In this document: positions 1,471-52,126 of the stretch, one piece after another
How positions within the stretch are numbered: position 1 is the stretch's first letter
Layout of the letters: each line of letters starts with the position of its first letter
Assembly (NCBI RefSeq): GCF_030167915.1
Contig: NZ_JARGNB010000002.1
Location: 372,001-436,000 of the forward strand
DNA: 64,000 bases
Reading direction: 5' to 3'
Source of the DNA: Aquabacterium humicola
GTDB taxonomy: Bacteria > Pseudomonadota > Gammaproteobacteria > Burkholderiales > Burkholderiaceae_C
Program-made: the position numbers and the translations under genes
Notes under the pieces: model-generated
Database searches by the model: none
The model's input: only the letters and a program-made list of their open reading frames with translations
Told to the model about the DNA's origin: nothing

Positions 1471-1484
1471 GGCACGGGGCTTGC
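1471..1484 (+). promoter_or_regulatory. Sigma-54 type promoter for the SDR gene at 1517
   Basis: GGCACGGGGCTTGCC shows GG-N10-GC spacing. The -12 GC ends 32 bases before the start at 1517. The same 15-mer recurs at 20565-20579 on the other strand. Confidence 0.7.
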
Positions 1485-1516
1485 CGCCCGCTGTGGCCTT
1501 CGACCTGCGGCGAATC

Positions 1517-2482
1517 ATGGCCAAGCTCTACGATCATCGGGTGCTCGTGACCGGCGGTGCCGGCTTCATCGGCTCGCACCTGTGCACGCAGCTGCTTCAC
1601 CGCGGCTACGAGGTGCTGTGCCTCGACAACTTCCACACCGGGTCGCGGCGCAATATCGCCCATCTGCAGCGGCACCCGCGCTTCGAGCTGCTGCGCCACG
1701 ACGTGACGCAACCGCTGCAGGTCGAGTGCGACATGGTCTTCAACCTGGCCTGTCCGGCCTCGCCGGTGCACTACCAGGCCGACCCGGTGCGCACCACCCG
1801 CGCCAGCGTGCTGGGCGCGCTGCACCTGCTGGAGCTCGCGCACAGGCTGCAGGCCCGCATCGTGCAGGCCTCGACCAGCGAGGTCTACGGCGATCCGGCG
1901 CAGCATCCGCAGCCGGAGGGCTACTGGGGCCACGTCAACCCGATCGGCCCGCGCGCCTGCTACGACGAGGGCCAGCGCTGCGCCGAGTCGCTGTTCGCCG
2001 ACTACCGGCGCCAGCACGGCGTCGATGCCCGCATCGCGCGTATCTTCAACACCTACGGTCCGCGCATGCACCCGGACGACGGCCGCGTGGTCTCGACCTT
2101 CATCGTGCAGGCCCTCGAGAACCGGCCGCTGACCGTGTTCGGCGACGGCCTGCAGACGCGCTCGCTGTGCTACGTCGACGACACCGTCGAGGCCTTGCTG
2201 CGGCTGATGTTCCTCGAGCGCGACCCGCCCGGGCCGGTGAACATCGGCAGCCCGAACGAGCTGCGGGTGATCGACCTGGCCGAGCTGGTCATCGAGCTGA
2301 CCGGTTCCCGTTCCACGATCGAGCGTCGAGAAGCCGCGGTGGACGACCCGCACCAGCGCTGTCCGGACATCACGCGGGCCGGCGCCGAGCTGGGATGGCG
2401 GCCGCAGATCGCCTTGCGCGAAGGGCTCATGCGCACGATCGGCTACTTCCAGCGGCTGGCACGTTCGCCGCAGGAAGGCTGA
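1517..2482 (+). CDS. UDP-glucuronate decarboxylase-like extended SDR
   Basis: This is an extended short-chain dehydrogenase/reductase of 321 residues, closest in style to UDP-xylose synthase (UDP-glucuronate decarboxylase), which makes a nucleotide sugar for surface polysaccharides. It has GGAGFIGSH at residues 13-21 (Rossmann dinucleotide binding), [26 protein letters not shown] and [10 protein letters not shown], all typical of the family. The catalytic motif, normally YDEGKR, reads YDEGQR here: Tyr149 is present but the Lys is Gln153 (codon 1973-1975). It is unclear whether the enzyme is active. The start codon lies just downstream of a sigma-54 type element. The end converges with the SDR at 2498. 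Confidence 0.85.
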
Positions 2483-2497
2483 CGCACGAAGGACGCG

Positions 2498-3313
2498 TCA
2501 GCCGGCGCGCCGCGTCACGGCACCGGCGACCCGCCGCAGCAGCCACTTCGGCGTCACCCGCCCGCCGATGGTCGCCACCAGGTTCGCCGCGCCCGGCACC
2601 TTGATCACCTGCCCGCGCTGGCAAGCCCGCCAGCCGTCGCGGGCGACCTGTTCCACGTCGCCGACGACGAACGACGGCAGTCGCGCCAGCGCCGGGTTGG
2701 ACGCCACTGCACCGCTGAGCATGCCGGTCGCCGTGATGCCCGGGCACAGGGCCGTGACGGTGACGCCCGATCCCGACAGCTCCTCGGCCAGCGACTCGGT
2801 GAGCGACAGCACGAAGGCCTTGGTCGCCGCGTAGGTGGCGAGCGTCGGCACCGGCTGGAACGCGGCGATCGACGCGACGTTCAGCACGCGGCCGTGGCCG
2901 CGCCTGACCATGCCCGGCAGCAACTCGGCCAGCAGCCCGGTCAGCGCGCCGATGTTGAGGTCGATCAGCGCCTGGTGTCGCGCCGGCGCGGTGTCGACGA
3001 AGGCCGCGTTCTCCAGGATGCCGGCGTTGTTGACCAGCACGTCGACCGTGATGCGACGGCGCTTGAGCTCGGCGGCCAGCGCGGCGGCGGCGCCGGGCCG
3101 GCCGAGGTCGGCCGGCAGCACCCGCACCGGCACGCCGTGCCGGGCCTTCAGCGCCGCGGCCAGCGCCTCGAGCTTGTCGGCGCTGCGCGCCACCAGCACC
3201 AGCGCGCAGCCGTCGGCCGCCGCGCAATGGGCCAGCGCTTCGCCGATGCCGGCGGAGGCGCCGGTCACCAGCACCGTGTCGCGGCGCGTTGCCGAAGGGT
3301 CTGCTGCAGCCAT
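2498..3313 (-). CDS. Classical SDR family oxidoreductase
   Basis: A 271-residue NAD(P)-dependent short-chain dehydrogenase. It has GASAGIG (cofactor-binding glycine motif) near residue 20, NNAG near residue 97, the catalytic Ser in NVASIAAF and the catalytic pair in YAATK. The C-terminus is basic and carries no obvious targeting signal. The substrate cannot be read from the sequence; relatives are annotated as short-chain acyl or ketone reductases. It is transcribed alone, convergent with the decarboxylase-like gene and about 60 bases upstream of the end of the mgtC-like gene. Confidence 0.88.
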   Translation of the reverse strand: MAAADPSATRRDTVLVTGASAGIGEALAHCAAADGCALVLVARSADKLEALAAALKARHGVPVRVLPADLGRPGAAAALAAELKRRRITVDVLVNNAGILENAAFVDTAPARHQALIDLNIGALTGLLAELLPGMVRRGHGRVLNVASIAAFQPVPTLATYAATKAFVLSLTESLAEELSGSGVTVTALCPGITATGMLSGAVASNPALARLPSFVVGDVEQVARDGWRACQRGQVIKVPGAANLVATIGGRVTPKWLLRRVAGAVTRRAG

Positions 3314-3374: not shown

Positions 3375-3929
3375 TCAGCGCTTGCTGCGCGGATCGACGA
3401 GGCGCGGGATCAAGGCGAGCACCGCGAGCGCGATCAGCGTCGCGACGATCGCGGTGAGGTCGCGGCCGAGGCCGCAGGCGATGCCGATGGCGCCGGTCAT
3501 CCACACGCCGGCCGCGGTGGTCAGGCCATGCACGGGCTCCTGTTCCGCATCGGCATCATCGGCTCGCGCGGGCGGGGGTGCGGGCAGGGACGGTCGCTCG
3601 TGCTTGATGATCGCGCCGGCACCGATGAAGCCGATGCCGGTGACGATGCCCTGGATCACCCGGCTCATGTCGGCCACGGGCATGCCGGCCTGCACGGGCA
3701 CCAGCACCAGCAGCGCCGAACCGACGGCCACCAGCATGTGCGTGCGCACGCCGGCCGCCTTGCCCTGGCGCTCGCGCTCGTAGCCGAGCGCGCCGCCCAG
3801 CAGCGCGGCCAGCAGCAGCCGCACCAGCAGCTGCGTCGCCAGCGCGGCATCGGGCAGGTCGGAGAACTCGGCCGCGAGCGTCGCGCCGATGGTGTCGAGC
3901 AGGTCCACCGGCGCTTCGCAGGCAAGCAC
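3375..3929 (-). CDS. MgtC/SapB family membrane protein
   Basis: A 184-residue inner-membrane protein with the conserved MgtC core: RLLLAALLGGALGYERE, the conserved arginine-containing AAGVRTHMLV, and GFIGAGAII, with four or five hydrophobic segments. MgtC proteins modulate Mg2+ or acid stress physiology and F-type ATPase in other bacteria. The first in-frame start is GTG 3929; a second GTG six codons later (giving MDLLDTIG) would match relatives better. No Shine-Dalgarno sequence is evident for either. Confidence 0.85.
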   Translation of the reverse strand: MLACEAPVDLLDTIGATLAAEFSDLPDAALATQLLVRLLLAALLGGALGYERERQGKAAGVRTHMLVAVGSALLVLVPVQAGMPVADMSRVIQGIVTGIGFIGAGAIIKHERPSLPAPPPARADDADAEQEPVHGLTTAAGVWMTGAIGIACGLGRDLTAIVATLIALAVLALIPRLVDPRSKR

Positions 3930-3945
3930 CGGGCCCGGCGCGGCG

Positions 3946-3968
3946 CCGCGGCATGGCGCTTGCCGCGG
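3946..3968. terminator. Inverted repeat, probable terminator of the LysR gene
   Basis: CCGCGGCA and TGCCGCGG flank a 7-base loop between the end of the LysR gene (4002) and the start of the MgtC gene. Its core also reads GGCATGGCGCTTGCC, a sigma-54 like element, but it points into the 3' end of lysR, so the terminator reading is preferred. Confidence 0.4.
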
Positions 3969-7860: not shown

Positions 7861-7938
7861 CGGTGCGTCATCGTGGCACGGCGGGTGCCCGCCCCGTGGG
7901 GGCCGCCGGCGCCGGCTTGTAACCGCTGCCGTCACCTG

Positions 7939-7952
7939 GGCATGGCGCTTGC
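7939..7952 (+). promoter_or_regulatory. Sigma-54 type promoter for the L,D-transpeptidase gene
   Basis: GGCATGGCGCTTGCC, GG-N10-GC, 36 bases before ATG 7989. It is identical to the element in front of ku (25952-25966). Confidence 0.75.
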
Positions 7953-7988
7953 CGCCTGCGTGCATCGCCCGTTCACTTCAGCCGTCAG

Positions 7989-8732
7989 ATGAAGCTTCGC
8001 CGCAGTCGTTCCGTCGTGGCCCTGGCCCTGGCCGTCGGCCTGGGGGTGCCGCTCGCCGCACTCGCGGCGCCGCTGCCGCCGCACGACAGCGAGGCGCAAC
8101 GCGTGCTCGCCAAGGCGTCGCCCGCGGTGCGCGCGCTGGATGCGCGCGTGCGCGAGCGCAGCGACAACGGCGGCCGCCCCTTCGCCATCCTCGACAAGGC
8201 GCAGGCGCGGCTGTACGTCTATGACCCGAACGGCCGGCTGCAGGGTGCCGCGCCGGTGCTGCTGGGCCTGGCGCGCGGCGACGACTCGGTGCCCGGCATC
8301 GGCGAGCGCCCGATCGCGAAGGTGCGGCCGTTCGAACGCACGACGCCGGCGGGACGCTTCGACGCCAAGCCGGGCCGCAATGCCAACGGCGAGGATGTGG
8401 TCTGGGTCGACTACGACGCGGCGGTGTCGATGCACCGCATGCGCGCGATCGACCCGACCGAACACCGACCGCAGCGCCTGGCCACGCCATCGCCGGCCGA
8501 CAACCGGATCTCGTTCGGCTGCATCAACCTGCCGCCGGCCTTTTTCGACCACGTGCTGAGGCCGCTGTTCACCCGCGGTGGGCAGCCGGGCGGCGTGGTC
8601 TATGTGCTGCCGGAGACGCGGCCGCTGCAGGCGCAGTTCGCCGCGCTCTTCGAGACGCCGCGGGCCGGGAGTGGCGCTGCCGCGATCGATGCACGCAGCG
8701 CGGCGCGGCTGCAGCTCGCCCGGCGATCCTGA
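7989..8732 (+). CDS. L,D-transpeptidase (YkuD-type) exported protein
   Basis: A 247-residue protein with a Sec signal peptide (MKLRRSRSVVALALAVGLG, cleavage near ALAA). The YkuD catalytic core is visible as a His in MHRM and the motif RISFGCINLPPAFFD, whose Cys is the nucleophile. Such enzymes form 3-3 peptidoglycan cross-links or attach proteins to the wall in the periplasm. It is preceded by a canonical -24/-12 element and followed by a strong hairpin, so it is a monocistronic unit. Confidence 0.85.
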   Translation: MKLRRSRSVVALALAVGLGVPLAALAAPLPPHDSEAQRVLAKASPAVRALDARVRERSDNGGRPFAILDKAQARLYVYDPNGRLQGAAPVLLGLARGDDSVPGIGERPIAKVRPFERTTPAGRFDAKPGRNANGEDVVWVDYDAAVSMHRMRAIDPTEHRPQRLATPSPADNRISFGCINLPPAFFDHVLRPLFTRGGQPGGVVYVLPETRPLQAQFAALFETPRAGSGAAAIDARSAARLQLARRS

Positions 8733-9190: not shown

Positions 9191-9264
9191 GTGTGAACTC
9201 CGGTGAGTGAGGTAACGGACAATCCCGCACGTGGCAAGGGCCGCGTGCCGGTCCCGTAGAGCCG

Positions 9265-9278
9265 GCAATGGACATGCC
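9265..9278 (-). promoter_or_regulatory. Sigma-54 type promoter for the Ser/Thr-rich gene
   Basis: On the minus strand GGCATGTCCATTGCC, GG-N10-GC, 74 bases before the start at 9190. Confidence 0.55.
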
Positions 9279-9332: not shown

Positions 9333-10889
<1,557 letters not shown>

Positions 10890-11059: not shown

Positions 11060-11138
11060 GTCGGCTATCGGGGCAGGGCCGGCCTGGGCGGCACGCGTCT
11101 TGCCAGACGTCAAGCTCAGCCACTGCCCGAGCCTCGCC

Positions 11139-11489
11139 ATGCCGTCCATCCGTCGCCGCCCGCTGCCTGGTGTGCGGGCCACCGAGCTCGCGATCGCCGT
11201 CCCCCAGGTGGTCGCCCATCGGCTGACGCGCCTGGCCACCGCGGGTCCGTGGCCCGGCGCCCGGGACCGGCGCGAATTTCATCGCATGGGCAGCGAGAAG
11301 GTCGCGGCCTTCCACGAGTCCTGGACCGCAATGTGGCTGCAGGCCTGGCGCGCGCCGATGCAGTTCGGGATGTCGCTGATGGGCTGGTGGTGGTGGCCCG
11401 CGCGGATCGCCGAGCACGGCCTGAAGCCGGTGCATCGGCGTGCGGTGGCCAATGCCAAGCGTCTCGCGCGGGAGCGCCTGCGCGGCTGA
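11139..11489 (+). CDS. Polyhydroxyalkanoate granule-associated phasin-like protein
   Basis: 116 residues. The segment ELAIAVPQVVAHRLTR, then ARDRREFHRMGSEKVAAFHESW and the C-terminal KPVHRRAVANAKRLAR match the small PHA-granule-associated phasin family of Burkholderiales. These proteins are amphipathic and coat the storage granule surface. I chose ATG 11139; the longer frame upstream lies in repetitive DNA. No polyhydroxybutyrate synthesis genes are nearby. Confidence 0.72.
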   Translation: MPSIRRRPLPGVRATELAIAVPQVVAHRLTRLATAGPWPGARDRREFHRMGSEKVAAFHESWTAMWLQAWRAPMQFGMSLMGWWWWPARIAEHGLKPVHRRAVANAKRLARERLRG

Positions 11490-11493: not shown

Positions 11494-11673
11494 CTAGTGT
11501 TCGAAAGACGCGTCCGTGCTGGACGCGTCGTTGTCGTCGCCGGCCAGGTCGTCGTCGCCTTCGATCGATGGCAGCGCGCTGTCCTCGACCAGGCGCGCGT
11601 TGACGGCGGCGATGACCTGGGCGCGGGCAAAGGCCAGCACGCGCTCGGCCGCTTGCAGTACTCGGGGATCCAC
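11494..11673 (-). CDS. Small acidic-tailed protein, GTG start
   Basis: A 59-residue gene beginning at GTG 11673 with a strong GGAGG ribosome site six bases upstream. The first 30 residues form a likely amphipathic helix (LQAAERVLAFARAQVIAAV); the tail is rich in Asp and Ser. It belongs to no family I recognise. It has its own sigma-54 type promoter, back-to-back with that of the DUF3606 gene, which makes it more credible than its size suggests. Confidence 0.6.
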   Translation of the reverse strand: MDPRVLQAAERVLAFARAQVIAAVNARLVEDSALPSIEGDDDLAGDDNDASSTDASFEH

Positions 11674-11718
11674 GGATGTCCTCCTTCGAATCGGGAATGT
11701 GCTTTAGGCAGCGATGAG

Positions 11719-11732
11719 GCAAGGCGCATGCC
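11719..11732 (-). promoter_or_regulatory. Sigma-54 type promoter for the gene at 11673
   Basis: Minus strand GGCATGCGCCTTGCC, GG-N10-GC, 45 bases before GTG 11673. Confidence 0.75.
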
Positions 11733-11740
11733 CGCGGCCG

Positions 11741-11754
11741 GGTACGCCGCTTGC
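11741..11754 (+). promoter_or_regulatory. Sigma-54 type promoter for the DUF3606 gene
   Basis: GGTACGCCGCTTGCC, GG-N10-GC, 80 bases before ATG 11835. It lies 8 bases from the divergent element at 11719-11732. Confidence 0.7.
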
Positions 11755-11834
11755 CCATGCCGCCGCCAAGTGCCCGCCGCCAAGTGCCCGCAGCGTCGGG
11801 CGATTCGCCAACCACCCGTCCCGGAAGGACCCCG

Positions 11835-12044
11835 ATGAGCACTCCGCAGCACGGCCCGTCGTCGGCCAATCCCTACCGTCCCCAGGTGCAGTTCGAGCCT
11901 CCGGCGCGGCTGGCGTACTGGCTTCGGGTGCTCGACAGCGACGAGCAGGAGCTGCGCCGGGTGGTCGACGAGGTCGGCTGCCATGCGCAGCGGGTGTGCG
12001 CGCGGCTGTGGGAACTGCGCCAGGGCCCGCCGCGCGCCAACTGA
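11835..12044 (+). CDS. DUF3606-like small protein
   Basis: 69 residues. The core LAYWLRVLDSDEQELRRVVDEVGCHAQRV has the pattern of DUF3606, in which a YW dipeptide is followed by a short helix, LxxAVxxVG and a terminal helix. The function is unknown; members are common in the stress regulons of Proteobacteria. GGAAGG lies upstream of the chosen ATG. It is monocistronic. Confidence 0.65.
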   Translation: MSTPQHGPSSANPYRPQVQFEPPARLAYWLRVLDSDEQELRRVVDEVGCHAQRVCARLWELRQGPPRAN

Positions 12045-12402: not shown

Positions 12403-12416
12403 GGCACCTCGCTTGC
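12403..12416 (+). promoter_or_regulatory. Sigma-54 type promoter for the catalase-like gene
   Basis: GGCACCTCGCTTGCC, GG-N10-GC, 41 bases before ATG 12458. Confidence 0.75.
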
Positions 12417-12457
12417 CGTGGAGTGCGGATCAACGAATTCCCGGGAGGCGAGCCCTC

Positions 12458-15727: not shown

Positions 15728-15759
15728 GGGGGCTCGGGAATTTTCAGCTGGTCTCGCTG

Positions 15760-15773
15760 GCAAACCGCGTGCC
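15760..15773 (-). promoter_or_regulatory. Sigma-54 type promoter for the receiver gene
   Basis: Minus strand GGCACGCGGTTTGCC, GG-N10-GC, 32 bases before ATG 15727. The same 15-mer precedes the gene at 25878. Confidence 0.7.
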
Positions 15774-16298: not shown

Positions 16299-16368
16299 GG
16301 TGTTCCTTTCGCCTTTCGCGGCAGTGCGGGAGGTGCGCCGGCGCAGGGTGCCGGCACGCCGGCGATGG

Positions 16369-16382
16369 GCAGTCCGCGTGCC
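16369..16382 (-). promoter_or_regulatory. Sigma-54 type promoter for the first DUF2383 gene
   Basis: Minus strand GGCACGCGGACTGCC, GG-N10-GC with CTGC at -12, 70 bases before ATG 16298. Confidence 0.6.
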
Positions 16383-16400: not shown

Positions 16401-16414
16401 GGTATGGGGATTGC
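16401..16414 (+). promoter_or_regulatory. Sigma-54 type promoter for the Gly-rich gene
   Basis: GGTATGGGGATTGCC, GG-N10-GC, 45 bases before ATG 16460. Confidence 0.65.
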
Positions 16415-16459
16415 CGCCGGCCGCCGCGGATGTCCGCATCGAGTTCACAGGAGCAGACC

Positions 16460-18949: not shown

Positions 18950-18963
18950 GGCACGCCGATTGC
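18950..18963 (+). promoter_or_regulatory. Sigma-54 type promoter for the epimerase-DoxX gene
   Basis: GGCACGCCGATTGCC, GG-N10-GC, 81 bases before GTG 19045; close to the textbook consensus. Confidence 0.7.
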
Positions 18964-19044
18964 CACGAACTCCGCCGGCTGCGGGAGGGCAGTGATGAAT
19001 CGACGTCCGGAACATTCGCCGCGCGCGCTGCGCGGCCGCTCATC

Positions 19045-20373: not shown

Positions 20374-20565
20374 GCGGCCGCGATGCCGCGGCACGAAAGG
20401 GTGCCGGCTTCGCGGTGCCTCGACGCGGGATCCATGCGCTCGTTCGGACATTGCAAGCACAGCAGCGAGGCCACGAGTCGACCGGGCTAGGCTGTCGGGC
20501 GGCGTCGGTGTGCGGTCCGTCGGAGGATGGTGGTCGAGGCCGGGAAGCCGGCACATGCGCTCCGG

Positions 20566-20579
20566 GCAAGCCCCGTGCC
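20566..20579 (-). promoter_or_regulatory. Orphan sigma-54 type promoter
   Basis: Minus strand GGCACGGGGCTTGCC, an excellent match that fires into the 180-base gene-free stretch 20374-20555. No credible minus-strand ORF follows. A hairpin CGGCAC-gaaagg-GTGCCG at 20388-20405 could end a short RNA. Confidence 0.5.
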
Positions 20580-22545: not shown

Positions 22546-22559
22546 GGCACGACGATTGC
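22546..22559 (+). promoter_or_regulatory. Sigma-54 type promoter for the DUF883 gene
   Basis: GGCACGACGATTGCC, GG-N10-GC, 41 bases before ATG 22601. Confidence 0.75.
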
Positions 22560-22600
22560 CACGTCCCGTGATCCCTCCACCCGCATGGGAGAACGACACC

Positions 22601-24511: not shown

Positions 24512-24541
24512 GGTGTCCTCGTTCGGTGGCCTGCGTCTTCG

Positions 24542-24555
24542 GCAATCGATGTGCC
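24542..24555 (-). promoter_or_regulatory. Sigma-54 type promoter for the glycosyltransferase gene
   Basis: Minus strand TGGCACATCGATTGCC, GG-N10-GC, 30 bases before ATG 24511; near-perfect consensus. Confidence 0.8.
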
Positions 24556-24630: not shown

Positions 24631-24644
24631 GGCATGCGGATTGC
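24631..24644 (+). promoter_or_regulatory. Sigma-54 type promoter for the gene at 24674
   Basis: GGCATGCGGATTGCC, GG-N10-GC, 29 bases before ATG 24674. Confidence 0.75.
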
Positions 24645-24673
24645 CATGGCGAGGCTTCGACAAAGGAGCGCCC

Positions 24674-25336: not shown

Positions 25337-25641
25337 GCACCCGCGCGGCCGGGCGGCGGCGGAGGGTGCCAAGGCGCCGCCGACCGCCGCGCCGAACGAT
25401 CCGCGCGCCCGCCGGCAGCCGATCCGACACCGGCGTCGCTGCGGTGACGGATCGGACTGCCGGCGGTGCGCGGCCGATACCTTGTTCGGGGAGGCCGCTG
25501 GCACTCGAGCCAGCACCTCGGCAATCGTCATGCCTCGTCGCGACCCGCAATGGCCGCGTACTTTGCAAGTTGTGAGCGCCAGGTGCTGCGGGTCGGCCGC
25601 GCGGCCCTGAGCGCGCGCGGGCGCTCGCGGCGTGCGGCGCC
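25337..25641. other. Gene-free stretch with two regulatory-like motifs
   Basis: No convincing ORF with a start site is present on either strand. It holds an orphan sigma-54 type element (25521-25534, minus) and the second copy of the 16-nt motif GGCCGCGTACTTTGCA (25552-25567). Confidence 0.6.
25521..25534 (-). promoter_or_regulatory. Orphan sigma-54 type promoter
   Basis: Minus strand GGCATGACGATTGCC, GG-N10-GC, pointing into 25337-25510 where no gene is visible. It is a candidate promoter of a small RNA or of a transcript antisense to the gene ending at 25336. Confidence 0.5.
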
Positions 25642-25878: not shown

Positions 25879-25929
25879 CTTCAGGTCTCCTCGCGCGGAT
25901 TTCATGGACCCGCGCCATGGCACGCCGTG

Positions 25930-25943
25930 GCAAACCGCGTGCC
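25930..25943 (-). promoter_or_regulatory. Sigma-54 type promoter for the gene at 25878
   Basis: Minus strand GGCACGCGGTTTGCC, GG-N10-GC, 51 bases before the start. Confidence 0.7.
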
Positions 25944-25951: not shown

Positions 25952-25965
25952 GGCATGGCGCTTGC
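25952..25965 (+). promoter_or_regulatory. Sigma-54 type promoter for ku
   Basis: GGCATGGCGCTTGCC, GG-N10-GC, 40 bases before ATG 26006; identical to the L,D-transpeptidase element. Confidence 0.75.
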
Positions 25966-26005
25966 CGATCGGCGGCATCGATCCTTGTCGAGACGGGAGA
26001 ACGGC

Positions 26006-30216: not shown

Positions 30217-30258
30217 GGTGGTGATGTCCTGCGGTGAGGCGATGTTCCACGGCGTCTG

Positions 30259-30272
30259 GCAAGGGGCGTGCC
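30259..30272 (-). promoter_or_regulatory. Sigma-54 type promoter for the ligD operon
   Basis: Minus strand GGCACGCCCCTTGCC, GG-N10-GC, 42 bases before ATG 30216. Confidence 0.75.
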
Positions 30273-30308: not shown

Positions 30309-30322
30309 GGAACGTCGCTTGC
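30309..30322 (+). promoter_or_regulatory. Sigma-54 type promoter for the DJ-1/PfpI gene
   Basis: GGAACGTCGCTTGCC, GG-N10-GC, 44 bases before ATG 30367. Confidence 0.7.
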
Positions 30323-30366
30323 CGCCGCCGCGCATCGCTTACACCGCTCGACGAAGGCTGGCCGCC

Positions 30367-31417: not shown

Positions 31418-31431
31418 GGCACCGCACTTGC
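31418..31431 (+). promoter_or_regulatory. Sigma-54 type promoter for the Gln-rich gene
   Basis: GGCACCGCACTTGCC, GG-N10-GC, 56 bases before ATG 31488. Confidence 0.7.
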
Positions 31432-31487
31432 CTCGCCGTTGGCGTCGGCAGTGGAGCCGGCTATCCACATCACTCCAGGAGATAGAG

Positions 31488-33063: not shown

Positions 33064-33110
33064 GCCGCCACTGACCTGGCCGGCGCGGCAATTGCCCTAT
33101 GCTGCGCTGA

Positions 33111-43000: not shown

Positions 43001-43803
43001 GCAAGCGCGTGGTCGGTTCGGACAGTCGAGGATCGCTGATCGTTTGGGACTTCGAGAAGCGCGCGCCCGCATTGTCAATCCCGGCCCACGCTGCGCGTGC
43101 CAGGTCCGTCGCCTACTCGCCGGACGGTGACCGCATCGCTTCGATCGGCAGCGACAACGTGCTGAAGGTATGGGATGGCCGCTCGGGCGAGTTGCTGGCG
43201 CAGTCGGTCCAGTTGCCCGCGCAAGCGACGCGTCTCGCGTTCAGCGCGACGGGCTACCGCATCGCGGTCGGGCTCCAGGATGGTGACCTGCTTCTTTACG
43301 ACAGCAGGACGGCGGCGCGCATCGGCCGGCCGCTCAGCGGTCATTCAGCCGCGGTATCGGCACTGGCATTTCATGAAGAGCGGCTGGCCTCGGCCGACTC
43401 GCGCGGCAACGTGCTGATCCGGACAGTGCGTGGCCCGACACAGCCGAGCTTGCCGCTCGCCGGACATGTCGGCCGGGTCAATGCGCTGGCCTTCAGCCCC
43501 GACGGCCTGATGCTGGCTTCGGGTGGCGAGGATTCCACTGTGCGGCTGTGGAATTCCAGGAGCGGTGAAAGCGTCGGCATACCGCTGAAGGGTCACGTCA
43601 GCTTGTCGCTCGCCTTCGGCAAGGACGGCGTCATTGCATCAGCCGGACGGGATCGCACGGTGCGCCTCTGGCCCGTCTTCCCGCGGTGGTTGGGCCTGCT
43701 CTGCAGCAAGGTCGACCCCGATCTCAGTGCCGAGGAGTGGTCGCAACTGGTCTCGCAGGACATCGGATACGTCAAGCCTTGCACGGCGACGGGGCCGGGT
43801 TGA
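40051..43803 (+). CDS. nSTAND1-type ATPase with WD40 propellers, putative defence sensor
   Basis: 1250 residues. NPWPGLAAYDEDSSSYFKGR begins the novel-STAND-1 NTPase; Walker A is YGKSGLGKSS (Gly63 to Ser71) and Walker B is LVFDQFEELF with Asp158. A winged region ends near residue 440. A membrane-like helix (458-478) and an Ala/Gln-rich coiled coil (about 485-575) follow. From about residue 625 to 1220 I count 14 WD40 repeats (examples: LAFSPDGALLVSGDEDGTLRW, LAFSPDGLMLASGGEDSTVRLW), enough for two seven-bladed propellers. The protein probably senses an invader through WD40 and releases the TIR partner. It is co-translated with the gene upstream. Confidence 0.85.
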   Translation: MSAVAAAAVLPAAPSGVRLTSDNPWPGLAAYDEDSSSYFKGRRSEKLELLRLVTQFPHVALYGKSGLGKSSLLQAGLFPLLREKKTYLPVYVRLNLHADSPLPPMAQAMQALQDALCSSGAEFTEPAKGESIWHYLHRRDLELWSVDNYPLTPVLVFDQFEELFAPRQGGFFDAASVMNALGDLIESRLPEELSGVTVERSRLSALDLQTQRYRTLISFREDYLPILKNWERGIPSLLRNFLALRPMSRSQATEAVKEPGERVLAPGIEHDIVEFVGNLDNDTQAVDAEVAIEPVLLSLCCTQLNTRRAAGRLIDADLLMSSGADILQDFYRCALAGMPDRVPRFIEGHLVQGKRYRASYPVDLAVQDGHLHRDELALLTDKRRLLRVDPQSGVDRVELIHDRLVGVVVAARDLRMSEAAAEAAEAQRQRDREVAEAAAEGVRRRAEALRLKKDRNRLIVALGLTSAFALFAVVQSVRLQGRTEEADAAAATATRAASQAQAAAAEAQVQRNIAHQQTALAQALAQKAVEQQENERRLRATADEQRDRAEAAERKSAAVMRQAVALRVATEGQATLAGVRPGSDRQALLMLVAAHRIAPELPAVKGQLLETIKSTARMERLIETGSRTAIFTPDGRGMVRVDSAGRIGMLDLAKGAWRGLYAGALDAAPAAAAGDGSSATSQVIAISRDGRRVAVSDDFNVVGLWDAQSGKLIARMEGHENTVHALAFSPDGALLVSGDEDGTLRWWRTEDGRETGTWSDPKATSIYSVAFSPDGKLLASGADEGQIRFYDAPGRAAPGLGALVHGEGAVRALAFSFDGQRLASGGDDKALRIWDVASGKRLHSVTAHEDAITSVAFNSDGRVASASDDKLVRVWQGERRVAELRGHDSAVRHVAFSPDGARLLSTGDDGTGRVWLARTWIPGESLFRAFRPVSLVRFDEDGIAVSVVQDDLTSLTWDITGSRMNRPTTRMDGGPWTPVAFGPGKRVVGSDSRGSLIVWDFEKRAPALSIPAHAARARSVAYSPDGDRIASIGSDNVLKVWDGRSGELLAQSVQLPAQATRLAFSATGYRIAVGLQDGDLLLYDSRTAARIGRPLSGHSAAVSALAFHEERLASADSRGNVLIRTVRGPTQPSLPLAGHVGRVNALAFSPDGLMLASGGEDSTVRLWNSRSGESVGIPLKGHVSLSLAFGKDGVIASAGRDRTVRLWPVFPRWLGLLCSKVDPDLSAEEWSQLVSQDIGYVKPCTATGPG

Positions 43804-44975: not shown

Positions 44976-45230
44976 TCACGACCCTCCGCGGCCGGGTTCG
45001 CGGCCGGGCGACTGACCCGGGCCCCGTGTGCGCTCGGTCGCGTCGCGTTCGGCCTGGCGCGCGCGGCGCCGGTCGGCTTCGTCCGCGGCGATGGCGTCGG
45101 CCGTGGGGTCTTCGGCGGTCTCGGCGTCGTAGCGGCGGCCGGCTTGGTCCTTGCCTTCCTGTTCGGTGGCCGCGGCGCGGCGTTCGCTGGTCGGCTTGGC
45201 CGGCCCGGAGGGGCGGTTCGATTCACGCAT
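44976..45230 (-). CDS. Small charged hypothetical protein
   Basis: 84 residues, disordered, rich in Arg, Glu, Ala and Gly (RRRARQAERDATERTRG). It has a GGAG site six bases before ATG 45230 and is the first gene of an operon with the host-attachment-type gene. It has the composition typical of the sigma-54-linked small genes here. Confidence 0.55.
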   Translation of the reverse strand: MRESNRPSGPAKPTSERRAAATEQEGKDQAGRRYDAETAEDPTADAIAADEADRRRARQAERDATERTRGPGQSPGREPGRGGS

Positions 45231-45267
45231 GGGATGCTCCCCATTCGATCGGTGATGCGATCCGGCG

Positions 45268-45281
45268 GCAAGGCCCATGCC
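45268..45281 (-). promoter_or_regulatory. Sigma-54 type promoter for the 45230-44417 operon
   Basis: Minus strand GGCATGGGCCTTGCC, GG-N10-GC, 37 bases before ATG 45230. Confidence 0.75.
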
Positions 45282-45300: not shown

Positions 45301-46626
45301 TCACCCCGTCGCGCTGACCCGCCAGATCGTATTGCCGACGTCGTCGACCACCAGCAGCGCACCGCGCTTGTCGATGGCCACGCCGACCGGCCGGCCGCGC
45401 GCCTCGCCGTCCGCGCCGAGGAAGCCGGTCAGCACGTCCTGCGGCGGGCCGCTCGGCTTGCCGGCCTCGAAGGGCACGAAGATCACCTTGTAGCCCGACG
45501 GCGGCTTGCGGTTCCACGAGCCGTGCAGGCCGACGAACATGCCGTTGCGCCATGGCGCGGGCAGAGCGGCCGCGTCGGTGCCGGCGACGAGGCCGAGCGG
45601 CGCGACGTGCGAGCCGAGCGCGTAGTCGGGCTTGATCGCCTTGGCCACCATGTCCGGCCGCGGCGGCTTCGCACGTTGATCGACGATCGCGCCGAAGTAG
45701 CTGTACGGCCAGCCGTAGAAGCCGCCGTCCTTCACCGAGGTGAGGTAGTCGGGCACGAGGTCGTTGCCGAGCTCGTCGCGCTCGTTGACGACGGTCCACA
45801 GCGCGCCGGTGGTCGGGTCCCAGGCCAGGCCGTTGGGGTTGCGCAGGCCGGTGGCATACAGGCGCTTCTGGCCGGTCTTCGCGTCGACCTCCCAGATCGC
45901 CGCGCGGCCTTCCTCGATCGCCATGCCGTGCTCGGCGACGTTGCTGTTCGAGCCGACGGTCGCATAGAGCTTGCTGCCGTCGCGGCTGGCGAGGATGTTC
46001 TTGGTCCAGTGGTGGTTGTGCGGGCCGCCGGGCAGCTCGGTGAGCTTCGTGCCGGCCGCGGCGATGGTCGTCGCGCCCGGCGTGTAGGGGAAGCGCACGA
46101 TGCCGTCGGCATTCGCGACGTAGAGCTGGTCGCCCACCAGGGCCATGCCGATCGGCGAGAACAGGTTGGCGATCAGCACCGAGCGGGTCTCGGCGACGCC
46201 GTCGCCGTCGGCATCGCGCAGCAGCGTGATGCGGTTCGCGCTCGGCACCGACGAGCCGGCCTTCTTCATCGCCTGCTTCATGAACCAGCCCTTGATGCCG
46301 CCCTTGGGCGCACCTTCGCCCTTCGGCGGCGCGGCCGATTCGGCCACCAGCACGTCGCCGTTGGGCAGCACGTGCACCCAGCGCGGATGCGACAGGCCGC
46401 TGGCAAAGGCCTTGACCTGCGTGCCGCCGGCGGCGGTGGGCGCGGCGCCGGCCGGCCAGCCGGTGGCCTCGGCGATCTTGACGGTCGGGATCAGCGATTT
46501 CTCCGGCGCCGGCAGGGTCGGGTCCGGGCCGACGCCGGCACTGTCGGGCAGCTTCGCGATGCCGCCACAGGCGGCGAAGACCGTGGCCACCGCGGCGGTG
46601 GCAAGCAGGGTGGGACGCAGGTTCAT
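45301..46626 (-). CDS. Sorbosone/PQQ-dependent sugar dehydrogenase-like lipoprotein
   Basis: 441 residues. [10 protein letters not shown] gives a lipobox-like signal. The mature part is a six-bladed propeller of the soluble glucose/sorbosone dehydrogenase type: [70 protein letters not shown] and [14 protein letters not shown]. The enzyme oxidises sugars or aldehydes outside the membrane and could feed electrons to the cytochromes encoded next door (inference). Confidence 0.85.
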
Positions 46627-46668
46627 CGCGGACTCCGGAATCATCGACGGGGGTCGATGAACGTCGCG

Positions 46669-46682
46669 GCACGTCGCGTGCC
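46669..46682 (-). promoter_or_regulatory. Sigma-54 type promoter for the dehydrogenase gene
   Basis: Minus strand GGCACGCGACGTGCC, GG-N10-GC with GTGC at -12, 42 bases before ATG 46626. Confidence 0.5.
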
Positions 46683-47582: not shown

Positions 47583-47596
47583 GCAAACCGCCGGCC
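47583..47596 (-). promoter_or_regulatory. Sigma-54 type promoter for the dihaem cytochrome gene
   Basis: Minus strand GGCCGGCGGTTTGCT, GG-N10-GC, 37 bases before ATG 47545. Confidence 0.5.
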
Positions 47597-47606
47597 CGCC
47601 GCTTGC
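47593..47606 (+). promoter_or_regulatory. Sigma-54 type promoter for the caa3 oxidase operon
   Basis: GGCCCGCCGCTTGCC, GG-N10-GC, 37 bases before ATG 47644; it overlaps the divergent element at 47583-47596. Confidence 0.6.
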
Positions 47607-47643
47607 CGGTGCTGCGGCGCGACAACCGGTGAAGGGCCTCGCG

Positions 47644-48027
47644 ATGCGTCGACTCGCGCTCATCCGCGCGCTCGGGCCACTCGGGCTGCTGTCCGCCGCG
47701 CTGCTGCTGGGCGCCTGCGGCGAACGCGGCACGCTCGACGGTGCGCGCGGCGATGCCGAGCGCGGCCGCGTGCTCGTCGCGCGCTACCACTGCGGGCAGT
47801 GCCATGCGGTGCCCGGCGTGCCGGCGGCGGGCGGCCGCCTCGGCCCCGCGCTCGACGCCTATGGGCGCCGCAGCTATATCGCCGGCCGCTGGCCCAACGA
47901 TCCGGTGCGGCTGGCGCTGTGGATCGCCGAGCCGCAGGCGCTGGCCGCGGACACGCCGATGCCCGACCTCGGCGTGTCCGCCGGCGATGCACGCGACATC
48001 GTGGCCTACCTCGCGACGCTGCGATGA
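47644..48027 (+). CDS. Monohaem cytochrome c lipoprotein
   Basis: 127 residues with lipobox LLGAC and one haem site CGQCH near residue 50; the Met ligand is in TPMPDLG. It is the first gene of the oxidase operon and probably an electron donor to subunit II. Its stop overlaps the next start (ATGA). Confidence 0.88.
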   Translation: MRRLALIRALGPLGLLSAALLLGACGERGTLDGARGDAERGRVLVARYHCGQCHAVPGVPAAGGRLGPALDAYGRRSYIAGRWPNDPVRLALWIAEPQALAADTPMPDLGVSAGDARDIVAYLATLR

Positions 48028-48971
48028 ACCCCGAGTCCGTGCTGTGGCCCGCGGGACCGGCCGCCGCGGCCGGCGCCGACACCGGCTGGGTGATGATCGC
48101 CGGCGCCGTGGCGGTGCTGGTGCTCGTGGCGTCGCTGCTGGGCTGGGCGCTGTGGCGCCGGCCCGGGGCCGCGCCGCTCGACGAACGCCGGCTGATGCAC
48201 CGCTGGGTTCTCGGCGGCGGCTTCGTCTTCCCGGCGCTGACGATGCTGGCGCTGTTTGCCTACGCCAGCGCCCGCGAGGACTTCTGGGCGCCGCGCCGCA
48301 CGGCCGGCGAGCCGGTGATCACCGTCACCGCGCATGCCTGGTGGTGGCAGGTGCAGGTGAGCGACCCTGCGCGCGGGCTGCACGCGACGCTGGCCAACGA
48401 GCTGCACGTGCCGGCCGGGCGGCCGGTGACCATCGGCCTGGCGAGCGCGGACGTGATCCATGCACTGTGGTTCCCGGCGCTCGCCGGCAAGCTCGACGCG
48501 ATCCCCGGCCGCGTGCAGCAGCTGCGGCTGCAGGCCGACCGGCCCGGCCGCTACGCCGGCCGCTGCGCCGAGTTCTGCGGCGAGCAGCATGCGCGCATGG
48601 GGTTGGTGCTGGTGGCCCATGCCCCCGAGGACTATGCGCGTTGGCTCGCGGCGCAGGCCGCGCCCGCGCTGCTGCCGCAGGATCCGCTGGCGCAGCGCGG
48701 CTGGCGGCTCTTCACGCAGCAGCGCTGCAGCGCCTGCCACGCGGTGCGTGGACTCACGGCGCCGGCAGCGATCACGGCGCCGGACCTGACGCACGTCGGC
48801 TCCCGGCCGGCGATCGGCGCCGGCGCGCGACCCCTGAACCGCGCGGCCCTGGCCGCGTGGATCGCCGACCCGCAGGCCTGGAAGCCGGGCGTGCGCATGC
48901 CCTCGTACCAGGACCGGCTGACGCGCGACGAGCTCGATGCGCTGGCTGCGTTCCTGGAGCAGCTGCGGTGA
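48024..48971 (+). CDS. Cytochrome c oxidase subunit II with fused cytochrome c
   Basis: 315 residues. Two membrane helices (residues 20-42 and 62-82) are followed by the CuA domain (VIHALWFPALAGKLDAIPG, then CAEFCGEQHARM supplying the His, two Cys and Met ligands). A cytochrome c domain follows with CSACH near residue 240 and Met in VRMPSYQ. This is the caa3 arrangement. The TrpTrp-rich AWWWQVQVSD is the usual electron entry site. It overlaps the next gene by GTGA. Confidence 0.93.
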   Translation: MNPESVLWPAGPAAAAGADTGWVMIAGAVAVLVLVASLLGWALWRRPGAAPLDERRLMHRWVLGGGFVFPALTMLALFAYASAREDFWAPRRTAGEPVITVTAHAWWWQVQVSDPARGLHATLANELHVPAGRPVTIGLASADVIHALWFPALAGKLDAIPGRVQQLRLQADRPGRYAGRCAEFCGEQHARMGLVLVAHAPEDYARWLAAQAAPALLPQDPLAQRGWRLFTQQRCSACHAVRGLTAPAAITAPDLTHVGSRPAIGAGARPLNRAALAAWIADPQAWKPGVRMPSYQDRLTRDELDALAAFLEQLR

Positions 48972-51553
48972 ACGCGCCCCAGCGGCCGCCGGGCCTGGAC
49001 GTGGATCCGCGGCGTCAGGACGACACGACCGGGACCTCGCTGCCGAACGACCTGCCGCGCCCGCCCGACGAGCTGCCGGCGCTCGAACGCGCCTGGCAGC
49101 GCCCGCGCGGCTGGCGCCGCCTGGCCGCTGTGAACAACACGCAGATCGGGCTGTACTACATCGCCACCGCGCTGCTGTTCTTCGTGCTCGCCGGCGTGCT
49201 GGCGCTCCTGATGCGCACGCAGCTCGCGTGGCCGGGGCAGCGGCTGGTGAGCCCGCAGCTGTACAACCAGCTGTTCACGATGCACGGCACGGTGATGATG
49301 TTCCTGTTCGCCGTGCCGGTGGTCGAGGCGATCGCGGTCTACCTGCTGCCGGGCATGCTGGGCGCGCGCGACCTGCCGTTTCCGCGCCTGTCGGCGTATG
49401 CCTTCTGGGCCTACGCGATCGGCGGGCTCGGCTTCTTCGCCACGCTGTTCTTCGGCGTCGCGCCCGACGGCGGCTGGTTCCTGTACCCGCCGCTGAGCAA
49501 CGGCGAGCAGTCCCCCGGCCTCGGCGCCGACTTCTGGCTGCTGGGTATCGGCTTCATCGAGATCTCGGCGATCGCCGGCGCGATCGAGCTGATCGTCGGC
49601 ATCGCCTTGACACGCGCGCCGGGCATGACGCCGGCGCGCATCCCGGTGTTCGCCTGGGCGATGGCGGTGGTCTCGGTGATGGTGCTGCTGGCCTTCCCGG
49701 CGGTGATCGCCGGCACGATGCTGCTGGAGCTGGAGCGCGCCTTCGGCTGGCCGATCTTCACGGCGGACCGCGGCGGCGACCCGCTGCTGTGGCAGCACCT
49801 GTTCTGGTTCTTCGGCCACCCGGAGGTCTACATCATCTTCCTGCCGGCCGCGGGACTGGTGTCGATGATGATCCCGGCCAAGGCGCAGGTGCCGCTGGTC
49901 GGCCACCGCGCGGTGGTGTGGGCGCTGGCCGCGGTGGCCGTGCTGAGCTTCGCGCTGTGGGCGCACCACATGTTCACCGCGGGCCTCAGCGCGAACGCGC
50001 TGCGCTGGGTGTCGGCAGCGAGCCTGGCCATCGCGGTGCCCACCGGCGTGCAGGTCTTCGCGTGGCTCGCGACGCTGCGCCGCGGTCGGCCGCCCATCGA
50101 CGGCACGATGCTCTACCTCGCCGGCTTCCTGCTGATCTTCGTGCCGGGCGGGCTGACCGGCGTGATGCTCGCGGTGCTGCCCTTCGACGGCCAGGCGCAC
50201 GACACCCATTTTGTCGTCGCGCACCTGCACTACGTGCTGATCGGCGGCATGCTGTTCCCGGTGTTCGCGGCGCTGGTGCACTGGGGGCCGCTGGTCAACG
50301 GGCACCGCCTGCGCGAGGCGGTGCTGCGGTGGAGCTGCGGGCTGATGTTCTTCGGCTTCCATGCCGCCTTCTTCCCGCTGCACATCGCCGGCCTGAACGG
50401 CATGCCGCGGCGCATCTACACCTACGACGCGGGCCTGGGCTGGACGCTGTGGAACGCGCTGTCGACGGTCGGGGCCTTCGTCTTCGCCGCGGGGGTCGCG
50501 CTGTTCGGGCTCGAGGCCTGGCGCACCTGGCGCCGGCCGGCGCAGCCGCATGGCGATCCGTGGCGCGCCGGCACGCTGGAATGGCTGGCGACCGAAGACC
50601 ACGGCATGCGCAGCATCCCGCAGGTGGCGGCGCGCGAGCCGCTGTGGCAACGCCCGGCGCTGGCGCAGGAGGTGGCGGCGGGCTGGCACTGGCTGCCGGG
50701 CAGCGCGACCGGGGCGCGCGAGACCCTCGTCACCCACTGGCGCCGCGCCGAGCCGCGGCACCTGCTGGTGCTGGGCGGCGACACCTGGTGGCCGCTGATC
50801 GCGGCCGCGGGCACGGCCGGCTTCTTCCTGCTGCTGACGGTCAAATGGAGCGTGCCCGCCGGGCTGTGCGGCGTCGTCGCCGTCGTGGCGATCTGGCGCT
50901 GGTTGTGGCAGACCGACCGCGCGCCGGCCGGCGCGATGGTGCGCGTCGCGCGCGACGTGATGCTGCCGGTCGGCGCGCGCCGGCGCCGCGACTCCCACGT
51001 CTGGTGGGCGTTGGGCCTGCTGCTGCTCGTCGATGCGACGATCCTGGCCTCGTTCGCCTTCTCGCACCTGCACGTCGCGATGCGCGCCGAGGTCTGTCCA
51101 CCGCCGGGCGCGCGGCTGCCGGACGGCGACCGGGCGCTGCTGGCGGTCGCGCTGTGGCTGGTCTCGGCCGCCGCGATGGTGCTGGCCTGGCGAGGGCCGA
51201 TCGACGCCGCGCGCCGGCGCAGCCTGCTCGCACCGAGCGGGTGGCTGCTCGCGGCGCTGGCCAGCGCCGCGGCCGCGTTCGCCGTCGACATGCTGGGGCA
51301 CCGCGCGGCCGGCCTCGAGCCGCGCCTGAATGCCTGGAGCGCGACCGCCGCGGCCTTGCTCGGCTGGCAGGCCCTGCACCTCGTGCTGCTGGGGCTGCTC
51401 GCCGCGTACCTGCTGGCGCGGTGGTGGCGGGGCGCCTCGTCGCCGGTGCCGGTCGGCACGCGCGACAGCGTCGCGCTGCTGTGGCTCTACACGGCCGCGC
51501 AGGGCGTCGTGATCATCGGCTGGGTGCAGGGCCTGCCACGCTGGCTGGCCTGA
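48968..51553 (+). CDS. Cytochrome c oxidase subunit I-III fusion
   Basis: 861 residues, GTG start. Subunit I occupies residues about 50-560: MHGTVMMF (haem a His), HPEVY with CuB His284 and the cross-linked Tyr288, HH at 333-334, and HFVVAHLHYVL. A soluble linker is followed from about residue 600 by seven hydrophobic segments with subunit III character (SHVWWALGLLLLVDATILASFAFSHLHVAM). It pumps protons while reducing oxygen. No subunit IV or assembly gene is visible in the window. Confidence 0.93.
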   Translation: MNAPQRPPGLDVDPRRQDDTTGTSLPNDLPRPPDELPALERAWQRPRGWRRLAAVNNTQIGLYYIATALLFFVLAGVLALLMRTQLAWPGQRLVSPQLYNQLFTMHGTVMMFLFAVPVVEAIAVYLLPGMLGARDLPFPRLSAYAFWAYAIGGLGFFATLFFGVAPDGGWFLYPPLSNGEQSPGLGADFWLLGIGFIEISAIAGAIELIVGIALTRAPGMTPARIPVFAWAMAVVSVMVLLAFPAVIAGTMLLELERAFGWPIFTADRGGDPLLWQHLFWFFGHPEVYIIFLPAAGLVSMMIPAKAQVPLVGHRAVVWALAAVAVLSFALWAHHMFTAGLSANALRWVSAASLAIAVPTGVQVFAWLATLRRGRPPIDGTMLYLAGFLLIFVPGGLTGVMLAVLPFDGQAHDTHFVVAHLHYVLIGGMLFPVFAALVHWGPLVNGHRLREAVLRWSCGLMFFGFHAAFFPLHIAGLNGMPRRIYTYDAGLGWTLWNALSTVGAFVFAAGVALFGLEAWRTWRRPAQPHGDPWRAGTLEWLATEDHGMRSIPQVAAREPLWQRPALAQEVAAGWHWLPGSATGARETLVTHWRRAEPRHLLVLGGDTWWPLIAAAGTAGFFLLLTVKWSVPAGLCGVVAVVAIWRWLWQTDRAPAGAMVRVARDVMLPVGARRRRDSHVWWALGLLLLVDATILASFAFSHLHVAMRAEVCPPPGARLPDGDRALLAVALWLVSAAAMVLAWRGPIDAARRRSLLAPSGWLLAALASAAAAFAVDMLGHRAAGLEPRLNAWSATAAALLGWQALHLVLLGLLAAYLLARWWRGASSPVPVGTRDSVALLWLYTAAQGVVIIGWVQGLPRWLA

Positions 51554-51630
51554 GCGTCATGAGGCCCCGCGTCGCTTCGCGCCTGCCCCCCGAGGGGGCG
51601 CGAGCCGCCTTGGGGCGGCCCGGCGGCGAC

Positions 51631-52065
51631 TCAGGCCGCGGGCGGCCCGCTGCCGCGCAGCACACGGCCGACGCTGAAGCGCCCGGCGCCGAGCAGCGCC
51701 ACCGCCGCGGCGCCGAACAGCATCAGGCCCTGCAGCTCGATCGCCCAGCCGCCCTGCTTGCCGAGCGCGAAGACCTCGTGCGCATGCACGAGCCCGATCG
51801 CGAACAGCATGTTCACCACCACCAGCAGCGCGCCGACGCGCGTCCATGCGCCGGCGATCATCAGCAGCGGCCCCAGCACCTCGCCGACGTAGGCACCGTA
51901 GGCCAGCGCCCCGGGCAGGCCGTGCTGCTCGAGCATGCCGGGCAGGCTGCCGAGGCCGTAACGGACCTTGGCGATGCCGTGCAGCAGCACCATCGCGCCC
52001 ACCGATACCCGCAGCAGCAGCTTGCCGGCGTCATCGAACCTGCGCTGAAGTTCCGGACCATCCAT
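51631..52065 (-). CDS. DoxX family membrane protein
   Basis: 144 residues, four membrane segments. LLLRVSVGAMVLLHGIAKVRYG, LAYGAYVGEVLGPLLMIAGAWTRVGALLVVVNM and LFALGKQGGWAIELQGLMLF are DoxX hallmarks. Members support thiol or oxidative-stress homeostasis. GGGAG lies before ATG 52065. It has its own sigma-54 type element and is convergent with the oxidase operon. Confidence 0.85.
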   Translation of the reverse strand: MDGPELQRRFDDAGKLLLRVSVGAMVLLHGIAKVRYGLGSLPGMLEQHGLPGALAYGAYVGEVLGPLLMIAGAWTRVGALLVVVNMLFAIGLVHAHEVFALGKQGGWAIELQGLMLFGAAAVALLGAGRFSVGRVLRGSGPPAA

Positions 52066-52112
52066 TGCCCGCTCCCTCGACCGCTCACGGTGATGAGTAT
52101 CCCGCGCCGGCG

Positions 52113-52126
52113 GCAAGCGCCGTTCC
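52113..52126 (-). promoter_or_regulatory. Sigma-54 type promoter for the DoxX gene
   Basis: Minus strand GGAACGGCGCTTGCC, GG-N10-GC, 47 bases before ATG 52065, in the gap after the thioredoxin gene. Confidence 0.65.

Follow-up and report, generated by a model that had tools for sequence, protein, structure and literature searches.

A putative second sigma-54 regulon in a stress-type gene island of Aquabacterium humicola

The window analysed here is a stretch of 64,000 nucleotides (nt) of the Aquabacterium humicola genome (contig NZ_JARGNB010000002.1, positions 372,001 to 436,000; G000:C12:372001-436000 in our numbering; genome of 7.39 Mb in 44 contigs). It opens within rpoN2, the gene of a second sigma-54 factor, and contains the gene of an NtrC-type bacterial enhancer-binding protein (bEBP) as well as promoter-like sites of the form GGCAYG-N4-TTGCC that face, among others, genes of stress type (Table 1). 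The sites belong to a single island (C12:361.6-424.1 kb) whose left end, seen after the view was widened by 40 kb to the left and 20 kb to the right, lies about 10 kb left of the window, so that the extent of 1471-52126 given in the initial annotation covers part of it. Further targets in the island are topoisomerase IB, a LigD cluster and disordered proteins. Gene calls come from our own codon-usage script and are uncurated, and the division into intergenic and coding DNA rests on them.

Sixteen exact (strict) copies of the core are found in the window, eight on each strand, where 60 order-2 Markov copies of the window averaged 0.15 and never exceeded 2. If one mismatch is allowed there are 33 sites (Markov mean 4.95, maximum 15), 30 of them intergenic and three inside genes (3686, 45141, 56620). 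As 46668 (+) and 46682 (-) are one 15-base palindromic site, these 30 correspond to 29 places, which is the number claimed initially, and the common form proposed with it also holds. A called start follows 14-128 bases past the GC at 25 of the 29 places; with the uncalled open reading frame (ORF) of 9278 (-), which has a ribosome-site-like stretch and lies 75 bases on, 26 places face a start (27 had been claimed). Counted by eye, GGC at -24 is present in 25 places and TTGC at -12 in 26, instead of 24 and 25, and three 15-mers recur as described, one of them three times and not twice. No obvious gene follows 3950 (+), 20579 (-) and 25534 (-); these strict cores may belong to small RNAs, small proteins or antisense transcripts. 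The clustering of the sites is evident: the island holds 17 strict sites in 11,877 nt of intergenic DNA and one in 50,724 nt of coding DNA, its 61 kb of flanks hold none, and 18 of the 42 strict sites of the genome fall into this approximately 0.8% of 7.39 Mb, the backward pattern occurring five times in the genome. An origin by chance or composition is rejected on the Markov copies, the backward pattern and the contrast between intergenic, coding and flanking DNA; the comparison with shuffled and coding DNA that was suggested initially speaks for the sites.

The common sigma-54 consensus has a leading T and an A or T at -11. The sites are not plain copies of the consensus TGGCACG-N4-TTGC with which they were identified initially: it has no exact copy in the window, and most sites have no T in front of GG and carry C after the GC. 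Among 37 sites the base preceding GG is G or C in 32 and -11 is C in 36, and TGGCAYGN4TTGCW has no exact match in the window, so that both the leading T and the A/T at -11 are absent from most sites. As promoters of paralogous sigma-54 factors are reported to differ at -11 (PMC3162934), the sites are taken as a promoter variant and the departure does not exclude the sigma-54 class. The GG and GC elements keep their ten-base gap: over 40 loci, comprising 39 around RpoN2 orthologues and one Pediococcus locus without any site, 95 strict sites with N4 stand against three with N3, one with N5 and one reversed. Their direction is equally clear. Of the strict sites of the own island and the 39 related loci, those in co-directional gaps point with the genes in 46 cases and against them in seven, and 48 lie in divergent but 3 in convergent gaps. 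The inner positions of the 37 sites are asymmetric as well (Y at +4 in all, G at +5 in 31, T at +10 in 32, T at +11 in all), which bears out the claim of directional promoters and not symmetrical operators.

Table 1. Sigma factor, activators and promoter-like sites of the island (positions are those of the window; negative numbers lie to its left; bases on are counted from the GC)
Feature	Position	Strand	Gene faced or remark
rpoN2	-273..1190 (in window 1..1190)	+	487 amino acids (aa); Sigma54_CBD and Sigma54_DBD in window part
NtrC-type bEBP	9333..10832 (end approximate; true start upstream of 10787)	-	receiver, AAA+ with GSFTGA, HTH_8; Sigma54_activat E 1e-69
Paralogous NtrC-type bEBP	-9097..-7661 (L033:10903-12339)		sigma-54 interaction domain
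Strict core	1471..1485	+	NAD-dependent epimerase 1517-2482, start 33 on; no orthologue in A. terrae stretch
Core, 1 mismatch	3921..3935	-	MgtC-family protein 3375-3908; kept in A. terrae
Strict core	3950..3964	+	no obvious gene
Core, 1 mismatch	7875..7889	+	8016-8732, start 128 on
Strict core	7939..7953	+	8016-8732, no Pfam match; kept in A. terrae
Strict core	9264..9278	-	uncalled 130-aa ORF, signal-peptide-like start, 75 on
Strict core	11090..11104	+	11172-11489; no orthologue in A. terrae stretch
Strict core	11718..11732	-	11494-11673; back to back with 11741
Core, 1 mismatch	11741..11755	+	11835-12044
Core, 1 mismatch	12403..12417	+	catalase-like, DJ-1 type C-terminus, 12458-14377
Strict core	15759..15773	-	stand-alone receiver protein 15263-15727
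Core, 1 mismatch	16368..16382	-	DUF2383 protein 15846-16298
Core, 1 mismatch	16401..16415	+	Gly-rich protein 16460-16969; no orthologue in A. terrae stretch
Strict core	18950..18964	+	epimerase-DoxX_3 protein 19045-20373
Strict core	20565..20579	-	no obvious gene
Strict core	22546..22560	+	DUF883-like protein 22601-23143 (match under Pfam cut-off)
Core, 1 mismatch	24541..24555	-	glycosyltransferase 23294-24511
Strict core	24631..24645	+	24674-25336
Strict core	25520..25534	-	no obvious gene
Strict core	25929..25943	-	small protein 25642-25878; back to back with 25952
Strict core	25952..25966	+	Ku 26006-26953
Strict core	30258..30272	-	29707-30216, then directly LigD 27430-29700
Core, 1 mismatch	30309..30323	+	DJ-1/PfpI protein 30367-30993
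Core, 1 mismatch	31418..31432	+	Gln/Gly-rich protein 31488-31793; no orthologue in A. terrae stretch
Core, 1 mismatch	33082..33096	+	PAS hybrid kinase 33111-35111; site not kept in A. terrae
Strict core	45267..45281	-	44976-45230
Palindromic core, 1 mismatch	46668..46682	-	GSDH-like protein 45301-46626
Core, 1 mismatch	47593..47607	+	cytochrome c / COX1-type oxidase operon 47644-51553
Core, 1 mismatch	52112..52126	-	DoxX 51631-52065; right-hand end of island; site not kept in A. terrae

The genome has two sigma-54 genes. RpoN2 matches PF04963 (1.3e-56) and PF04552 (3.6e-56), its residues 10-484 align with a solved sigma-54, and it shares 42% identity with RpoN1 of the same genome; the helix-turn-helix (HTH) and the RpoN box are kept in both proteins. 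In a tree of 88 rows, 84 of them different (RpoN1 rows reduced from 28 to 16; L194, L197 and L208 left out), 68 RpoN2 proteins form one clade (support 100/97) and the RpoN1 proteins, including the product of an lptB-linked gene of a Comamonas, belong to another. The nearest named relative of RpoN2 is that of Aquabacterium terrae (89%), and further orthologues are known from Roseateles, Mitsuaria, Pelomonas, Rubrivivax, Hydrogenophaga, Variovorax, Comamonas, Delftia, Rhizobacter and Scleromatobacter. Beside the recognition helix RpoN2 shows Asn-Asn (N397 in 40 of 40 proteins, N396 in 39 of 40); the corresponding residues are Thr/Ser-Ala in 28 RpoN1 proteins and Thr-Gln in a solved sigma-54. The Asn-Asn pair is a candidate reader of -11. 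On the Comamonadaceae plasmid CP099607.1 (L208) a sigma-54 gene adjoins a sigma-54-dependent regulator and has a TTGCG-type site just upstream, possibly another pair of sigma-54 and activator.

With the receiver of the bEBP at -9097 as query, a close relative (E 1e-32 or better) is present in 32 of 34 genomes with RpoN2 as compared with one of 33 others (Fisher p 1e-15). Counted among the former are G068, G069 and G175 with proteins that share 50-52% identity with RpoN2; of the latter, four were tested with the RpoN2 protein and 29 were chosen from genomes with a single sigma-54 match. By eye, the activator lies on the RpoN2 contig in 30 of the 32 genomes at a distance of 1-90 kb, and a bEBP is found 1-3 kb from each RpoN2 copy in G078 and G119 and from two of the three copies in G183. 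All 11 activators read, those of the island and those within 10 kb of RpoN2 in nine of the 39 related loci, have GSFTGA in the sigma-54 loop. Hybrid kinases are close by, and one single-linkage kinase cluster has members in 33 of the 39 loci. Judged from sequence, this sigma-54 paralogue has been inherited together with a bEBP of its own. The two activators of the island, 20 kb apart, are identical in 178 of 180 aligned AAA+ columns and diverge more in their receivers and C-terminal regions, as if by gene conversion.

The base that follows the GC appears to distinguish two classes of promoters. In the own island it is C in 18 cases and A in one, the latter being the promoter of rpoN2 itself. 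Around RpoN2 in other genomes C is found 17 (G143, taken as A. terrae), 5 (G139), 3 (G052), 6 (G197) and 6 (G199) times with one A each, G199 having also one T. Of 40 regions upstream of rpoN2, 39 (all but L104) contain a site that deviates at no more than one of the ten core positions; its -11 base is G in 28 and A in 11. Outside the island the own genome has 24 strict -11 C sites (an earlier count; a rerun with L126 left out judged 22), 17 of them intergenic and 15 of those with a near start, besides 28 non-C sites apart from that of rpoN2, 19 intergenic and 14 of those with a near start. In G197, which has RpoN2, the 19 stretches judged outside its island contain 21 of the 53 sites of that genome; 19 of the 21 are intergenic and 18 of those have a near start. 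Simply counting the strict pattern in 200 genomes does not, by eye, set RpoN2 genomes apart; most strict matches in the single-sigma-54 genomes G133 and G003 lie inside genes, and intergenic position was therefore used as test. In these two genomes -11 C sites are intergenic in 4 of 17 and 1 of 14 cases, with 13 coding in each, and the intergenic share differs from that of the two RpoN2 genomes with p 3e-8. Intergenic -11 C sites are thus linked to the presence of RpoN2, as far as these genomes indicate, and -11 may be the discriminator of two sigma-54 regulons.

According to Pfam, -11 C sites outside the island face glutaredoxin, glutathione S-transferase (GST), LemA, BrkB, DUF4142, a polyhydroxyalkanoate (PHA) granule protein, a receiver, a histidine phosphatase, a glycosyltransferase and six proteins without a match; those of G197, named from sequence and not from Pfam, include hemerythrin-like and glycosyltransferase-like relatives of genes in the window. 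Non-C sites face three Peripla_BP_6 binding proteins, two BPD_transp_1 permeases, an aldehyde dehydrogenase, a transketolase-N protein, a Fer4_20 enzyme, three hydrolases/lipases, a TonB plug and sensors of PilJ type and PAS kinase type, which we take to be typical RpoN1 targets. Promoters of P-II genes offered too few sites for a reading of RpoN1's preference at -11.

Conservation of the sites extends well beyond this genome. The 95 strict sites were found within up to 10 kb on each side of the RpoN2 orthologues (39 loci), and over the 40 loci mentioned above 13 sites have A/T at -11. Although about 83% of this DNA is coding, 91 of the 95 are intergenic, 76 being intergenic with a start within 150 bases, and the distances from strict and one-mismatch sites to the start peak at 40-59. 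In A. terrae the site is kept in 21 of 24 target orthologues and is present in none of 25 non-target orthologues (p 5e-11), the core being constant and the N4 spacer drifting; four own targets and ten non-targets have no orthologue in the 100-kb A. terrae stretch. Exemplar targets in relatives are DUF883-like, receiver, mechanosensitive-channel, OmpA-like, BON, PRC-barrel and Crp-type proteins and therefore suggest a stress/envelope theme without a fixed gene list.

We consider it likely that a specialised RpoN2 and its own NtrC-type activators run a stress-type regulon through -11 C promoters in a cascade started by RpoN1. RNA polymerase with RpoN2 would bind GGCAYG-N4-TTGCC and wait for a phosphorylated response-regulator activator to open the promoter. 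The activators would presumably be phosphorylated by a neighbouring hybrid kinase and, with differing receivers and one type of AAA+ motor, could feed two signals in. Position -11 would sort the regulons, C directing to RpoN2 and A, T or G to RpoN1. As the promoter of rpoN2 carries A or G there, RpoN1 probably transcribes rpoN2, and its turning rpoN2 on would make a two-step cascade. The output would comprise topoisomerase IB, Ku, the LigD cluster, DJ-1, the catalase-like protein, DUF2383, DUF883-like, MgtC, DoxX and disordered proteins and the COX1-type oxidase; beyond the island, glutaredoxin, GST and LemA would be among the targets. We infer that the island promoters are read by RpoN2 rather than RpoN1 and that the role of the regulon is stress survival.

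The own genome has RpoS, as have 24 of 34 RpoN2 genomes and 15 of 33 others (11 of the 15 over the curated cut-off). As it is retained in the own genome and in most genomes with RpoN2, the RpoN2 regulon looks like an addition beside RpoS, and a replacement of RpoS by sigma-54 is not supported. The initial idea of a stress regulon moved to sigma-54 thus pointed in the right direction without naming the dedicated RpoN2 and its activators, and its element of a move finds no support; the stress-type targets it listed are backed by sequence except that the site of CinA (20618) has two mismatches.

This last site is one of several observations that weigh against the proposed RpoN2 regulon. Three strict sites lack an evident gene, and the target sets near rpoN2 vary between genera. 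The stress label rests on gene names, with many targets of unassigned function and metabolic genes (oxidase, glycosyltransferases) included. The activator match is absent in G053, which has two copies of RpoN2, and in G011, where RpoN2 is a 175-residue fragment, and it is present in G177 without a second sigma-54. In G133 and G003 three of 31 strict matches are intergenic with a near start and form exceptions to the rule. In the own genome GGCAYGN4TTGCW occurs 10 times against 9 backward and the TTGCG form 19 times against 10, and the RpoN1 side of the -11 code is weakened because these non-C patterns barely exceed their backward controls. A search for dyads and words in the DNA preceding strict sites (33 own, 17 of G143, 27 of G197 and 91 from 38 related loci) found no shared activator site, and the divergent core pairs 11718-11755 and 25929-25966 are separated by 8 bases, too little for a shared enhancer between them. 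Neither of the two dyads that emerged is taken as an activator site: the four GGCA-N7-TGCC cases traced in the own 124-kb region are adjacent promoter cores (two of them strict and divergent, the others the cores with one mismatch at 7875 and 24555), and the ATCAT-N7-ATGAT-like dyads of seven related loci have a coding-like appearance.

Among other explanations, true RpoN2 promoters might serve a metabolic, envelope or stationary-phase housekeeping regulon and not stress defence. The COX1-type oxidase, glycosyltransferases and PHA granule protein would fit it, as would Nramp-like and homospermidine-synthase-like targets in G197 (named from sequence), but Ku, the LigD cluster, topoisomerase IB, DJ-1, the catalase-like protein, glutaredoxin and GST are targeted too, and we regard this reading as unlikely. 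It is a good deal less probable that real promoters are read by the housekeeping RpoN1, with RpoN2 redundant and only the activator special: both sigma-54 proteins possess the HTH and the RpoN box, and in Bradyrhizobium DOA9 both RpoN proteins bound most tested promoters (PMC13207237), but the two single-sigma-54 genomes have few intergenic -11 C sites, such sites cluster around rpoN2, and residues beside the recognition helix differ consistently in the RpoN2 clade. The core contains the palindrome GGCA-N7-TGCC, which might be the operator of some other, dimeric regulator, and 46668-46682 matches both ways with one mismatch each, but the asymmetric inner positions, the orientation with the genes, the avoidance of convergent gaps and the spacing fixed at N4 make this reading hardly credible, and a symmetrical operator is rejected on asymmetry and direction.

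Two neighbouring features deserve mention. The best catalase match of the protein 12458-14377 begins at profile position 196. At 38660-43803 a TIR-domain protein is followed by a WD40 protein in a stretch that finds no counterpart when aligned with A. terrae; it may be an insert in the island with a role in defence or signalling.

The general stress responses of RpoS, sigma-B and EcfG have similar kinds of targets and depend on factors of the sigma-70 family without an ATP-driven activator; the system proposed here differs from them by sigma-54 with a bEBP and by coexistence with RpoS. The closest known system is that of Cereibacter (Rhodobacter) sphaeroides. C. sphaeroides is alike in having several sigma-54 paralogues, of which all that were studied are paired with a bEBP of their own (RpoN1/NifA, RpoN2/FleQ, RpoN3/AprX; PMC11999139); there, as is proposed here, the -11 base influences which paralogue reads a promoter (PMC11999139; PMC3162934). 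It belongs to the Alphaproteobacteria and has nif, flagellar and motility-control targets, whereas here tens of promoters of stress-type genes are found in Burkholderiales and, unlike in C. sphaeroides, rpoN2 has a promoter of the other -11 class. RpoN2 of Burkholderia arboris is sister to the RpoN2 clade (100/96; this row, like some others, is flagged as a long branch whose place is unsure), yet it shares 45% identity and has G, not C, at -11 in the three GGCAYGN4TTGC matches nearby. RpoN2 of B. pseudomallei, presumably its orthologue, is reported to be necessary for expression of catalase E (PMC4745423), so that the second sigma-54 of Burkholderia resembles the one here in having a catalase among its reported targets. 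RpoNp of the Bradyrhizobium DOA9 megaplasmid is also a second sigma-54, reported to serve mainly in stress adaptation and to have motif differences of its own, but it has 22 predicted sites and the reported changes lie elsewhere (TGG to CGG, TGC to CGC); in contrast with the private bEBP here, the accessible text mentions no private activator (PMC13207237). For rpoN2 of Ralstonia solanacearum no role in metabolism or virulence was observed (PMC4676750). A 2025 survey of sigma-54 regulons gives multiple rpoN genes in about 5% of organisms, and its main text contains no word beginning with Burkholderi or Comamonas (PMC12316311). Among the matches listed from the open PMC literature, outside of which most subscription journals fall, there was no report of an RpoN2 stress regulon in Comamonadaceae or Sphaerotilaceae. 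Our verdict is that sequence evidence points to a real system whose pairing of sigma-54 and private bEBP is already known and whose stress-type version in Burkholderiales is new.

Sigma-54 is usually regarded as a single factor per cell that is shared by many activators. In many Burkholderiales a promoter code appears to have been passed on jointly with a second sigma-54 and the activator of the latter, and this set appears to control a stress-type regulon, next to RpoS in those genomes that have it. Tentatively, and as a possibility more than an expectation, we propose a clade-wide general-stress-type response of Burkholderiales with a private sigma-54 and private ATP-dependent activators, insulated by -11 C from the nitrogen/carbon regulon and arranged as a two-step cascade. 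If this is true, tens of promoters per genome would be predictable from one base, DUF883, DUF2383 and disordered proteins would gain a regulator, and the insulation of paralogous sigma factors could be probed by altering a single promoter base and residues close to the recognition helix.

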